Source: Methanosarcinales archaeon
Lineage (GTDB): Archaea; Halobacteriota; Syntropharchaeia; Alkanophagales; Methanospirareceae
Direction of reading: 5' to 3'
DNA: 32,472 bases
Assembly: GCA_030611045.1 (NCBI GenBank)
Contig: JAUWQN010000011.1
Coordinates: forward strand, 1 to 32,472
In this document: positions 1,721 to 32,451 of the stretch, one piece after another
Position numbering within the stretch: position 1 is the first letter of the stretch
How the letters are laid out: each line of letters opens with the position of its first letter
Program-made: the position numbers and the translations under genes
Notes under the pieces: model-generated
What the model was told of the DNA's origin: nothing
Seen by the model: the letters and a program-made list of their open reading frames with translations, nothing else
Databases searched by the model: none

Positions 1721-1918
1721 CTATAAATTTAAAATTTCTTTTACTCTGCCGATTTCGCCGGATTCGAGGCTGACCTTGATTCCATGTGGATGTGTTGCAG
1801 AATTAGTCAGAATGTCTTTAACTGTACCTTCCGTTAGATTTCCTGAGCGTTGATCCTTTTTAAGTACTATTGCTACCCGTATTCCCGGTCTTATATTCAC
1901 TCGGTTAGTTCCATTCAT
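1721..1918 (-). CDS. YwbE family protein (DUF2196), copy 2
   Basis: A 65-residue paralog of the protein at 774-971, sharing KKDQRSG.LTEG, DILTNSA.HPHGIKV and GEIGRVKE. The frame is open for 47 more codons upstream, but the ATG at 1918 is preceded at good spacing by a perfect Shine-Dalgarno (AAGGAGGAT, complement of 1926-1934). The start also aligns with copy 1, so the short form is chosen. Its leader begins directly after the attC-like palindrome at 1958-2043, so this gene sits where the next cassette of an array, or the flanking chromosome, would be. Function unknown. Confidence 0.85.
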   Translation of the reverse strand: MNGTNRVNIRPGIRVAIVLKKDQRSGNLTEGTVKDILTNSATHPHGIKVSLESGEIGRVKEILNL

Positions 1919-1957
1919 GAAAAATATCCTCCTTATTCGATAGTTTCGTTGTATTAC

Positions 1958-2043
1958 ATATAACGTTTGTTTTGCGGATAAAAGAAGTTCCCCGAAGGCG
2001 AATTTGGACAAAGCGTAGTGGAGCCGCAAAGCCCGTGTTATAC
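1958..2043 (-). repeat. attC-like imperfect palindrome
   Basis: Read on the minus strand the order is: GTATAAC (2043-2037), 6-nt spacer, TTTGCGG (2030-2024), 46-nt centre, CCGCAAA (1977-1971), 6-nt spacer, GTTATAT (1964-1958). The outer boxes pair 6 of 7, and each differs at one position from the integron consensus RYYYAAC / GTTRRRY. The inner boxes pair 7 of 7. An outer extension CGTTGTAT (1947-1954) pairs with ATACAACG (2040-2047). Box order, spacing and total length match an integron attC site, and it begins 23 bases after the stop codon of the 2067-2903 gene. Assignment as attC is inference. Confidence 0.5.
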
Positions 2044-2066
2044 AACGTTGCCACTCCAACTTATTA

Positions 2067-2903
2067 TCATTCTGCCTGTGTCTCGATCTTTTCTATACTG
2101 ATCAAAAACTCGCCATATCCGTCATAGCTTTCGAGAAGCATGTCTAGCCCTTCTTGATCGAGGATGCGCACATTCCGAACCGGATTTTTAACGAGCGGGA
2201 CGACTGTTGTCACTCGAAATTTAGCACCCATGTACTCGCTAACATCCGCTGGTGAAAGCGGTTGCGTTTCCGTTGGCTTAACTATGAACTCTTCAAGAAT
2301 TGATTCGATCTCTTCCAGAATACGGATTCCGATGTCTAGAATACTCCTAGCATCGGCGGGACGAACATACTCGCCATGGACTGCCCTGTTACACAAGGAT
2401 ATTACTTCTCGAAGTGGCCCTGACTGCTGCGCGGGTAATATACCAGATCGAACGAGATCGCCGACAAGACGGTTGAGGCCCGCTTGCCGTCGCTGCCTGG
2501 TGGTGGGAGTTGTTAAGTGATGAAGTCGAGTTAATGCCTGTTCAAGTTCTATGCGTAGCTTCGCGAGTGCGAGAACATAATCTCTGTCAAGCAAATCTAG
2601 TAGATTCTCTCCGACTGATCGGACTTCGGGCGTGATTGTTTCTCGGACCTCGTCTGTGCCCAGTCGCTTGTCTACCTCCGATTTGACCTTTTCCACCTCA
2701 TCGGGAGCTATCTCAGCCTCGAATTCGCCCACCTTGATCTTTCTCAATTGTTCGATGAAGGGGCTGACCAGAAGGAGAGCAAGGAGCAGCAACGTGGTAG
2801 TGTCAACTGTAATCTGTTTCCATCCCACCACATGACTTATAAGCAACGCGAGAGCTATTAGAAAAACGATCCATGATACGTTATGCAAGAGAAATTGGCG
2901 CAT
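2067..2903 (-). CDS. Unknown two-helix membrane protein in a cassette-like unit
   Basis: A 278-residue protein not recognised as a named family. Two hydrophobic segments (about residues 8-25 and 36-52) are followed by a soluble region. That region includes a charged stretch, a helical part with LCNRAVHGEYV reminiscent of HEPN/DUF4145-type helical domains, and a C-terminal beta-rich tail. The frame is open further upstream with TTG and ATG options. ATG 2903 is preferred because GAGG lies 9-10 bases before it. The gene is preceded by GTTAGAC (complement of 2926-2932) and followed by the attC-like palindrome, and an 11-bp perfect inverted repeat flanks it (2039-2049 and 2930-2940). Arginine codon use (CGA, CGG, CGT) differs from the AGA-rich neighbours, which suggests transfer. 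Confidence 0.65.
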   Translation of the reverse strand: MRQFLLHNVSWIVFLIALALLISHVVGWKQITVDTTTLLLLALLLVSPFIEQLRKIKVGEFEAEIAPDEVEKVKSEVDKRLGTDEVRETITPEVRSVGENLLDLLDRDYVLALAKLRIELEQALTRLHHLTTPTTRQRRQAGLNRLVGDLVRSGILPAQQSGPLREVISLCNRAVHGEYVRPADARSILDIGIRILEEIESILEEFIVKPTETQPLSPADVSEYMGAKFRVTTVVPLVKNPVRNVRILDQEGLDMLLESYDGYGEFLISIEKIETQAE

Positions 2904-2925
2904 TTTTATCATCCTCAGCAATGTC

Positions 2926-2940
2926 GTCTAACGTTGTATA
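2926..2940 (-). repeat. Upstream boundary of the cassette-like unit
   Basis: The minus strand reads TATACAACGTTAGAC. It contains GTTAGAC, an exact match to the integron core GTTRRRY, 23 bases before the chosen start codon of the 2067-2903 gene. AACGTTGTATA on the plus strand (2930-2940) is a perfect inverted copy of 2039-2049. No complete partner palindrome could be found further right, so only a half site is present here. Confidence 0.45.
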
Positions 2941-3140: not shown

Positions 3141-3572
3141 ATGGCACGAGAAGAAGAAACCAAGTACAGGTACATCGAGCATCCCTCGGACGTCGGATTC
3201 GAGGCGTATGGCGCCACGTTAGAAGAGCTCTTTGCCAATGCTGCGCTCGCTACGTACAGCTTCATGACCGATGTAGTGGAGATAGAAACAACCGAGACGA
3301 AAGAGATAACAGTAAATGCAGAAGACCTTTACAGCTTGATGTTCGATTGGCTGGATGAGCTGCTATTTCTGTTTGAGTCGGAATCGCTGGTTATAAAAGA
3401 ATTTGATATAACTGTTGATGATTCTACGTTTAGCATAAAAGGGAAGTGCCGAGGCGGGAAATTCGATCCGGCGAAGCATGAATCAGGCATCATAATAAAA
3501 GCCGTTACCTATAACATGATGGAAGTGAAGAAGAACGAGGTTTGGTGCGCACGGGTCGTTTTAGATGTGTAA
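3141..3572 (+). CDS. Archease
   Basis: A 143-residue protein that looks like archease, the small metal-binding cofactor that activates the RNA ligase RtcB (guanylation and multiple turnover) in tRNA splicing. Seen in the sequence: the N-terminal EHPSDVGFEAYG, LFANAA, a central DWLDELLFLFE, and the C-terminal HESGIIIKAVTYNMMEV followed by a terminal VVLDV whose aspartate is conserved. Length is typical. The ATG at 3141 has no strong Shine-Dalgarno. A divergent accessory gene lies to the left and pheS converges from the right, so it is probably transcribed alone. RtcB is not in the window. Confidence 0.92.
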   Translation: MAREEETKYRYIEHPSDVGFEAYGATLEELFANAALATYSFMTDVVEIETTETKEITVNAEDLYSLMFDWLDELLFLFESESLVIKEFDITVDDSTFSIKGKCRGGKFDPAKHESGIIIKAVTYNMMEVKKNEVWCARVVLDV

Positions 3573-30043: not shown

Positions 30044-30125
30044 GACATAACTAACGGCTACCGCATAAAAGAAGTTTTTGCAGAATACAAATTTGGGTGT
30101 TGCTGAAAGGCGAATATTTTATGTC
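30044..30125 (-). repeat. Second palindromic repeat related to the attC-like element
   Basis: GACATAA (30044-30050) and TTATGTC (30119-30125) form a perfect 7-bp inverted pair about 80 bp apart. Inside lies ATAAAAGAAGTT (30065-30076), identical to 1978-1989 of the attC-like element, followed by a further shared AATTTGG. Like the first, it lies behind the stop of a minus-strand gene (methyltransferase) and before a strong ribosome site. The inner L-type boxes are not clear, so it is more degenerate. Confidence 0.4.
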
Positions 30126-30162
30126 GTGTTGTGATCGATCGTAGGTGCGAAGCCGCCCATCA

Positions 30163-30693
30163 CTATCCCTCTTTCAAGAAACTATATGTTCTTTTACCTT
30201 TTCTTGACAGTCTAAACAAATCTTCATTTGTTACCTTAGATACTATCTCATCTTCATTCATATGGTGGTCACTGAAGGACAGAATTCCGTTTGGTTTCAA
30301 TACTCGATGTAACTCTTCTAACACCCCCTTCGATTCACTCAAGTCGTGAAACGCATCGTATAATATAGCTACATCTACGCTACTATCTGGCAATCCCGTT
30401 TTGCACCCAGAACAAATGGTTTTTACATTCGAAAGCTGCTTTCTTGACGCGATATTCTGAACTCTCTGAATTGCAAGTGGATGGATATCTAAGGCGTAAA
30501 TTTTCCCGGATTCCCCCACCAATTCTGCAAGAGGGATTATATAACTGCCAGGTCCACAGCCATAATCAAGTACGTGAAATCCTGGTTTTATCCCCACTTC
30601 TTTCAAGATATTCGTGCGGGGCAATAAGAAATCGCGAAATTTGTAGCCGAAAGACATGAATTTGAAGTGGAAATTGGACATTGGTTTATCCAT
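30163..30693 (-). CDS. Class I SAM-dependent methyltransferase
   Basis: About 176 residues with a Rossmann SAM-binding core: motif I HVLDYGCGPGSYIIPLAEL, the acidic residue at the end of beta 2 (YALDIHPLAI), VDVAILYDAFHDL as motif II/III, and ELHRVLKPNGILSFSDHHM. The UbiE/COQ5-like wording (LKPNGILSFSD) is typical of small-molecule methyltransferases; the substrate is unknown. The frame opens with GTG 30702, but ATG 30693 has GGGGTGA at good spacing. The palindromic repeat at 30044-30125 follows its stop, so it may be a second mobile cassette-like gene (inference). Confidence 0.85.
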   Translation of the reverse strand: MDKPMSNFHFKFMSFGYKFRDFLLPRTNILKEVGIKPGFHVLDYGCGPGSYIIPLAELVGESGKIYALDIHPLAIQRVQNIASRKQLSNVKTICSGCKTGLPDSSVDVAILYDAFHDLSESKGVLEELHRVLKPNGILSFSDHHMNEDEIVSKVTNEDLFRLSRKGKRTYSFLKEG

Positions 30694-30816
30694 GTAGTTC
30701 ACCCCTATTTTTCACGTTCTAACTTCCATCATCTCCCCCAGTGGGATATTATACATTTTGGATAATATTAATAGCTATTTAAATCCAACGCTTATTTGGC
30801 TTAGCGTGTGAGCTAA

Positions 30817-30946: not shown

Positions 30947-31495
30947 ATGGTGCGAAAAGACAAAGGCGCGGAAAGGAAGAAGACTGAAACCATCAAAGAG
31001 CGGGCAATTTACGTTTATCTCCCCTCTCAAGAGATGGTTAAGGACTGGAAAAAGCGCGCGAAGAAGCGAGGGGCGTCCATCTCGAAGTTCGTTATCGAGC
31101 ACGTCGAAAATTCACTGCAGCAGGAAGAGGATTCAACCTACAAACCCCGAGGAGAATTAATCAAGGAGATCAACGAGCTGAGAGCACAGATAAGAGAGCT
31201 AACGGGTGATAACCGACAGAAGAGAATCGTGATTGAACGATTAGAAAACGAGTTGAGGACGTATAGAGCAGAAGTCTTTTTGCAAGAAAGATTCGAGGGG
31301 GTTAGGAAGTACGATAAGGAATTGATTGGCATTCTGAAAAAGCGAGGCGTAGTAGACAGTGATGAGTTGTTGGAATATCTCGGCATTGATCACCGGGATA
31401 GCGATCTTGTTAAAGCAGTATCCATACAGTTGGCAACGCTTGAAGCTTACGGACTTGTATCGCAGACTAAGCGAGGATGGAGGTGGGTGGGATGA
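30947..31495 (+). CDS. Ribbon-helix-helix-like / winged-helix DNA-binding protein of an integrated element
   Basis: A 182-residue protein in three parts. The N-terminal IKERAIYVYLPSQEMVKDWKKRAKKRGASISKFVIEHV resembles a ribbon-helix-helix DNA-binding domain. The middle (about 68-110) is a coiled coil (ELIKEINELRAQIREL...RLENELRTYRAE). The end (about 120-182) looks like a small winged helix (YDKELIGILKKRGVVDSDELLEYL...YGLVSQTKRGWRW). It lies 47 bases behind tRNA-Leu and overlaps the recombinase by 4 bases (ATGA). Such proteins probably act as the partner or regulator of the recombinase, for example as directionality factor or repressor; this is inference from position. Confidence 0.75.
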   Translation: MVRKDKGAERKKTETIKERAIYVYLPSQEMVKDWKKRAKKRGASISKFVIEHVENSLQQEEDSTYKPRGELIKEINELRAQIRELTGDNRQKRIVIERLENELRTYRAEVFLQERFEGVRKYDKELIGILKKRGVVDSDELLEYLGIDHRDSDLVKAVSIQLATLEAYGLVSQTKRGWRWVG

Positions 31496-32451
31496 GCAGC
31501 AGGGCTATCCTACCATACCAAGCCACCAAGAGCAACATGGATCTAATCGAGGGGTTTTATGAAGACTGTAAACTAAAGGGCATGACTCCCGAGACAATAC
31601 GGCGATACAAATCCAGCATCTTAATCTTCAATGATTTCCTTACTCAGCGGGGGACATCCTTGATTGATGTTGATAAGGGAGCGCTAAAGGACTTTCTTGC
31701 ATATCTTCGGCAGGTAAGAAAAGTGAAGCAAAATACGATTGAAAACTATTTCTCTGCTTTATCAAGCCTCTACGAATTTTTAGAATTTGAAGAATATATG
31801 CTAAAAAATCCTGTACTGGCAGTAAGGAAACGTTTTGTGAGATCGTACAAAAAGGGTAAGGGTAGTAATTCGGATAGAAAACTAATTCCCGTCGAGGAAA
31901 TGAAAATCCTCATCAATTCCATTCTGGATACGAGGGATAAAGCTATTATAACGCTTTTAGCAAAGACAGGGATCAGAAGGGGGGAGCTTATCAGTATAGA
32001 CGTAGATGACATAGATTGGGTTGAAAATAGCATAACCCTCAAACCAAAAGCAAAACGAAGTAATAGAACAGTTTTCTTTGACGATGAGACTGCGAGGCTT
32101 CTTAAAAAATGGATTAAGTTAAGGGAGCGAAGAGAACCAAAAACTAATGCCTTGTTCATCGGTGAGACTGGAACCCGATTGAATAGAAATGGCTGTTATA
32201 TCGCCGTTACGAAACATGCACAGCGAGTAGGCCTGCATGATTCAGATTCAGATAAGATGGAAGATCACTTCTCGCCGCACTGTTGCCGGCACTGGTTCAC
32301 CACGCATCTTCGAAGGGCAGGGATGACACGAGAGTTCATTCAGGAGTTGCGCGGCGATAGAAGAAAGGATGCCATTGACATCTACGATCACATAGACAAA
32401 GAAGAACTTAGAGAAGCGTATCTTGCTCACATTCCGCAGTTGGGGATATAA
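31492..32451 (+). CDS. Tyrosine recombinase / integrase (XerC/D-like)
   Basis: About 319 residues. An N-terminal SAM-like core-binding domain (about 15-105; FYEDCKLKGMTPETIRRYKSS) precedes the catalytic domain. Catalytic residues: R162 (AKTGIRRGEL), a lysine in LKPKAKRSN, H263 and R266 (SPHCCRHWFTTHL), and nucleophile Y298 (AIDIYDHI). The usual LGH box is ELRGD, common in archaeal integrases. The frame opens at 31477, but ATG 31492 forms an ATGA overlap with the preceding gene, with GGAGGTGGG upstream. With tRNA-Leu 0.6 kb upstream it probably integrated this element there. The other attachment site is not in the window. Confidence 0.92.
   Translation: MSSRAILPYQATKSNMDLIEGFYEDCKLKGMTPETIRRYKSSILIFNDFLTQRGTSLIDVDKGALKDFLAYLRQVRKVKQNTIENYFSALSSLYEFLEFEEYMLKNPVLAVRKRFVRSYKKGKGSNSDRKLIPVEEMKILINSILDTRDKAIITLLAKTGIRRGELISIDVDDIDWVENSITLKPKAKRSNRTVFFDDETARLLKKWIKLRERREPKTNALFIGETGTRLNRNGCYIAVTKHAQRVGLHDSDSDKMEDHFSPHCCRHWFTTHLRRAGMTREFIQELRGDRRKDAIDIYDHIDKEELREAYLAHIPQLGI

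Follow-up and report, generated by a model that had tools for sequence, protein, structure and literature searches.

The question raised by this locus is whether a gene in an archaeal chromosome can be carried by an integron-type cassette and, if so, what kind of recombinase such cassettes belong to. The stretch of DNA analysed here (the window, 32,472 nucleotides in all) comes from an archaeal MAG (89 contigs, 1.54 Mb in total), and the genes neighbouring the locus are archaeal (archease, PheS, aldehyde:ferredoxin oxidoreductase and F420 ligase). A sequence-only reading had proposed an integron-type cassette at this place, and every refutation test that was applied left the proposal standing. 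Our best explanation, to which we give a probability of about 0.82, is that the cassette in the window is a relic from an archaeal integron system in which a XerA-like recombinase heads the arrays. Such a system seems to have been little noticed, and its likely integrase lacks a part that is thought essential in bacteria.

The candidate cassette consists of one ORF, the gene of 278 aa at 2067-2903 (minus strand), and an attC-like site behind it. An R'-type box, GTTAGAC, is present in the sequence, as had been noticed before, at 2926-2932 (minus strand), 22 nt upstream of the ATG at 2903, and marks the cassette start. The attC-like site (1958-2043, minus strand) has its R'' box at 2037-2043 and its R' box at 1958-1964, so that the cassette unit covers 1964-2931 (minus strand): it begins at the G^TTAGAC cut (2932/2931) and ends with the G of the R' box downstream (1964). 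The outer boxes, R'' GTATAAC and R' GTTATAT, pair at 6/7 positions, both spacers are of 6 nt, and the inner boxes TTTGCGG/CCGCAAA pair at 7/7. These coordinates, pairings and spacers agreed with the palindrome geometry described earlier, but the inner boxes are not the L boxes of the site family: the 7/7 pairing is off register, because the true L' is the arm CTTTTATCCGC (1974-1984, minus strand; intact in the window according to alignment A2, described below) and its partner L'', GCGGATAAAAG, is absent from the window site when this is compared with the family alignment. Five of the 11 L pairs remain, while 10 or 11 are kept by 84 of the 114 family sites, and the window site ranks among the most degraded of these. 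Taken alone, the palindrome is poor evidence for an attC; an equally good site by simple geometry was found in 7 of 200 dinucleotide-shuffled windows (3.5%), and its stability as a plain DNA hairpin was ordinary (z = -0.9 against shuffles).

When the palindrome and its surroundings were searched as DNA, a 131-nt query returned essentially only itself from its own genome, which made it look like a unique copy; this was rejected after a 167-nt query had been run against the family, revealing a repeat whose core was present in 41 of the 51 genomes and in 13 of the 14 genera; among the lowest-scoring matches, a few fell on the leader of a YwbE gene and not on the site. Many different arm sequences occur among the extracted copies, which share the arrangement RYNTAAC-A-[11-nt arm]-loop-[11-nt arm]-AAAAC-GTTRNRY. 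In an alignment of 44 sites from which the window was excluded (A2), the stems showed standard pairs in 90.8% of cells and double changes in 171 cells, against 69+-7 after shuffling, and the covariation score was 0.529, falling to 0.077 or less when the alignment was slid. The L stem is gapless, with 11 bp of which 96% are paired, and extrahelical bases are absent from the L arm of the family. The spacers are lopsided, with 1 nt on the 5' side and 5 nt on the 3' side.

The covariance model built from A2 (R2) recognised the window site, which lies outside its training set, with 43.5 bits (E=4.9e-8) and the corresponding site of a relative of the same genus (G003) with 40.0 bits. R2 sites were found in 31 of 39 genomes searched, with 1 to 43 in each (23 in G047, a single-contig genome), while none were found in the phylum-level genomes G043-G046, G049 and G050 and none of the bacterial attCs were recognised. 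A bacterial model (R1) was built from 61 attCs, most of them beside genuine IntI genes in Pseudomonadota; it recovered attCs in eight Pseudomonadota loci, which overlap the training loci, so that this check is not independent. R1 ranked the window site first within the window, weakly (17.1 bits, E=0.013), and detected no archaeal sites near recombinases outside the window's family. The attC-model check suggested for this palindrome thus came out in its favour, weakly with the bacterial model and clearly with the archaeal one. R1 also found bacterial-type attCs in some genomes of the window's family; its matches within coding genes on contigs C47 and C26 were dismissed as false.

Comparison with relatives bears on the history of the locus. 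In the window the cassette lies between archease (3141-3572, plus strand), used as a divergence control, and a YwbE-family gene (1721-1918, minus strand), which is the flank behind the cassette. The same gene and palindrome are found between archease and YwbE in G003. Such conservation had been named in advance as a sign of ordinary vertical DNA, yet the values observed do not fit this: between the window and G003, dS was 0.123 for the cassette gene and 0.728 for archease next door, and identity was 93-96% between start box and stop codon but 79-84% in YwbE, archease, PheS and the attC. Along 2067-2934 the identity to G003 steps from ~80% to ~94% over the gene body and the start box, not over the attC. 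The likeliest course of events would be an exchange of the gene body after the lineages of the window and G003 had split. In G021, which belongs to another genus, an unrelated attC precedes the YwbE leader, and the leader again starts at the G^TTRRRY junction. A chance palindrome beside an ordinary, vertically inherited gene, a reading compatible with the shuffling and hairpin figures given above, can hardly be credited in view of the E value obtained with an independent family model, this shared YwbE junction and a cassette gene dS six times below that of its neighbour.

Some further features of the surroundings were observed. Two YwbE-family genes (777-971 and ~1724-1918; 83% identical in aa) flank a DUF502 gene, and only the second has the cassette-type leader. 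YwbE was considered as a mobile cassette gene in its own right, a candidate weakened by the presence of YwbE near archease in two relatives that have no cassette. Other genes with attC-like remnants occupy the same place upstream of archease in two more genomes (L018 in G002 and L021 in G022), and the archease side is possibly an insertion hotspot. No empty site for the window locus was found, and none could be aligned, among the relatives compared; insertion at a secondary site, as had been supposed, was neither demonstrated nor required.

When an integron cassette is circular, its R' is the one from the cassette start. The R'' that closes a unit is consequently expected to match the R' that opens this unit, and not the R' adjacent to that R''. 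For 58 neighbouring pairs, the end R'' matched the start R' of its own unit at a mean of 9.12 of 12 positions; the mean was 7.46 within the same site, 7.49 for pairs taken in the reverse order and 7.80+-0.13 with shuffled partners (0/5000 reached 9.12). The difference persisted when the conserved core was left out (5.30 vs 3.99+-0.13), and an earlier structural scan in which R pairing was not used gave 9.50 vs 7.98+-0.20 (21 pairs). In the window, the cassette start GTTAGACGACAT was the best of 8 upstream GTT candidates for pairing with the end R'', with 9.6/12, and it ranked in the top 1.3% of all GTTs of the window; this match is good, short of perfect. The complementarity of start R' and end R'' was therefore seen both in the family as a whole and in the window.

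In each of the 58 neighbouring pairs both sites lay on the same strand. Of the 114 sites, 86 closely followed the end of an ORF (minimum length 60 aa); on the opposite strand this was so for 22/114, and at random positions for 17.7%. As far as sequence can tell, the unit was shown to consist of one gene plus an attC-like site with R''/R' and L''/L', repeated head to tail on one strand; the window also has such a site behind a gene of the same strand, with its L stem decayed. Two or more attCs within 4 kb and in the same orientation occur in relatives. The window locus holds a single site, with the next R2 site 28 kb away, and so it falls outside the definition of a CALIN (at least two attCs less than 4 kb apart, no integrase) and forms no array itself.

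The repeat is dispersed and structured, and like REP elements or terminators it stands behind genes, so it might be a transposon-like or RNA-coding palindrome (MITE, REP or intergenic hairpin) that merely resembles an attC. Such an origin would account neither for pairing between the R'' of a copy and the R' of the preceding copy of the same strand, nor for placement on one strand behind a recombinase. In addition, the two outer R positions pair poorly within one site (22/44 and 24/44 in A2) while the L stem pairs well, and Rfam had no family matching the repeat. We regard this explanation as very improbable.

The window site is not the only one in its genome, which carries at least six R2 sites. 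The search for further copies, which had been proposed as a check, was thus positive, and the description of the unit as a lone cassette does not hold, since other cassettes of the same site family occur in the genome. The second site of the window is at 30049-30134 (minus strand; R2 36.5 bits, E=2.6e-6), behind a class I methyltransferase gene (30163-30702, minus strand) whose stop codon is 28 nt before R''. A matching start R' was sought for this site and for the one on contig C9, and none was found. The genes that precede the own-genome sites (on C9, C34, C33 and C57, and 30163-30702 in the window) have a defence flavour: a radical SAM protein with a weak viperin-like match, two methyltransferases with Mad2-like matches, a HEPN protein and a DUF3024 protein. 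Only remnants of the recombinase were found in this genome, on C52 and on C33 just upstream of the HEPN-gene cassette. The window copy is probably a relic cassette and likely immobile, because its L stem is broken and its own genome shows only these remnants.

A second kind of attC is also present in this genome: a decayed one of bacterial type on C21 (2637-2705; L185 1501-1569), ~5 bases behind an HNH-nuclease-like gene. In G003 (C63:17590-18462; L159 and L177), a Hypoth_Ymh gene is enclosed by two bacterial-type attCs with a spacing of 0.8 kb, and a PIN-like gene precedes them.

A XerA-like tyrosine recombinase was found upstream of the sites and on the same strand in 20 of the 20 loci holding both, within 2.3 kb in 17 of them; for the loci outside the family mainly the downstream side of the recombinase was covered, so that the absence of sites upstream of it is there partly built in, which is not the case for the common strand. 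In about 10 further recombinase loci the contig ends just after the gene. The array recombinase passes the NCBI archaeal XerA model NF040815 ('site-specific tyrosine recombinase/integron integrase') with 255 bits (cut-off 220) and fails to pass the integron-integrase model. The I2 region is absent from 12/12 aligned array recombinases and present in 19/19 IntIs, and the distance from box I to HxLRH is 92 residues in the array recombinase compared with 133-139 in the 19 IntIs. In the tree, the IntIs form one clade (99/99) and the array recombinase is placed outside it. Like the archaeal XerA, the array recombinase has no I2, but it differs in ~85 extra N-terminal residues and in its fixed place heading cassette arrays. 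A HARP-like domain was considered for this N-terminal part and rejected (sub-threshold Pfam match, E=0.026; no related solved structure matched). The earlier remark that no integrase is visible was confirmed for the array type, the recombinase gene of the window (31477-32451) being a distant XerA-like one.

Archaea bearing IntI do exist (PMC9668308), and bacterial-type attCs occur in some genomes of the family, including the decayed one on C21 (2637-2705), so a classical IntI with I2 could act in trans from bacteria or rare archaea, the adjoining XerA-like recombinase being a bystander. We consider this unlikely. No IntI above the TIGR02249 cut-off was found in 394 genomes of the phylum (57 of 299 genomes in Pseudomonadota, for comparison), the two models are blind to each other's sites (R1 to the archaeal sites near recombinases outside the family, R2 to the bacterial attCs), and the XerA-like gene stands at the array head in every one of the 20 loci. 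Many copies of the recombinase are broken or at contig ends, and for this reason the active enzyme could be another one. Intact array recombinases also occur, among them an ORF of 362 aa in G040:C2 and one of 368 aa in G022:C3.

Somewhat more probable than its negation, in our judgement, is the wider proposal of a second kind of integron operating in the archaea of this phylum, with a XerA-type recombinase devoid of the I2 helix and folded sites devoid of extrahelical bases. Single-strand cassette recombination would then have had an independent origin here, or else the system would survive from a stage that preceded the gain of I2. In such a system, strand exchange at G^TT would release cassettes as circles, the site of the excised circle would fold as single-stranded DNA, and the recombinase at the array head would insert the circle next to itself. 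The choice of strand would probably be set by the lopsided spacers (1 nt 5', 5 nt 3'), because the recombinase has no I2 and the sites no extrahelical bases.

The cassette protein, read as a membrane protein, has N-terminal hydrophobic helices followed by a DUF4145/HEPN-like helical bundle; its predicted structure was of low confidence (pLDDT 58.6), with HEPN-like matches that had no significant E-value. PADLOC gave no match for it, and no relative of the gene was found in the viral contigs searched. Its arginine codons differ from those of its neighbours, as previously claimed, although only mildly (16/21 CGN, compared with roughly half in most neighbour genes). With a dN/dS of 0.31 between the window and G003, the gene looks still under constraint. 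Homologues were found in G003 (91%), a plasmid of Vibrio owensii (34%, DUF4145), a Bacillota MAG (35%) and G020 (34%). The Vibrio homologue has an attC directly behind it (R1 48.8 bits, E=7.6e-11), which means that the family of the window gene rides in bacterial-type cassettes too. On that plasmid, pVOWZ1 (L086 8974-9729), the next gene after the DUF4145 gene with its attC belongs to the Abi-alpha family.

The archaeal units share with bacterial integrons and CALINs the one-gene cassette, the attC-like site behind the gene, the G^TTRRRY border, the complementarity of unit start and end, the head-to-tail arrays and the recombinase at the head. They differ in that the recombinase has no I2 region and shares its reading direction with the cassettes, in the gapless L stem without extrahelical bases and the 1/5-nt spacers, and in being barely detected by the bacterial attC model. 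Cassette arrays in archaeal MAGs, mostly without a nearby integrase, were also described by Ghaly et al. 2022 (PMC9668308), whose calls were made with HattCI/IntegronFinder and comprised domain-bearing IntIs or bacterial-type attCs, single attCs being excluded; the present sites are of a different family and go with a different recombinase, and some of the genomes studied here may be listed as CALINs in the supplement of that survey. A review of archaeal tyrosine recombinases leaves cassettes unmentioned (PMC8371274), and in the literature searched (mostly open-access, few preprints) we found no account of the present sites or of I2-less recombinases heading arrays.

The finding suggests that surveys based on IntI and bacterial attCs miss much of the archaeal cassette traffic. 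A hint that genes have passed between the two systems comes from Vibrio, where a homologue of the window gene sits in a bacterial-type cassette. The single-strand activity of integron integrases is thought to have come with the acquisition of the I2 helix, a docking point for the extrahelical bases of attC, and the absence of known intermediates has been named as an obstacle (PMC7790495). With arrays headed by an I2-less recombinase and sites devoid of extrahelical bases, the I2-gain model would become testable.
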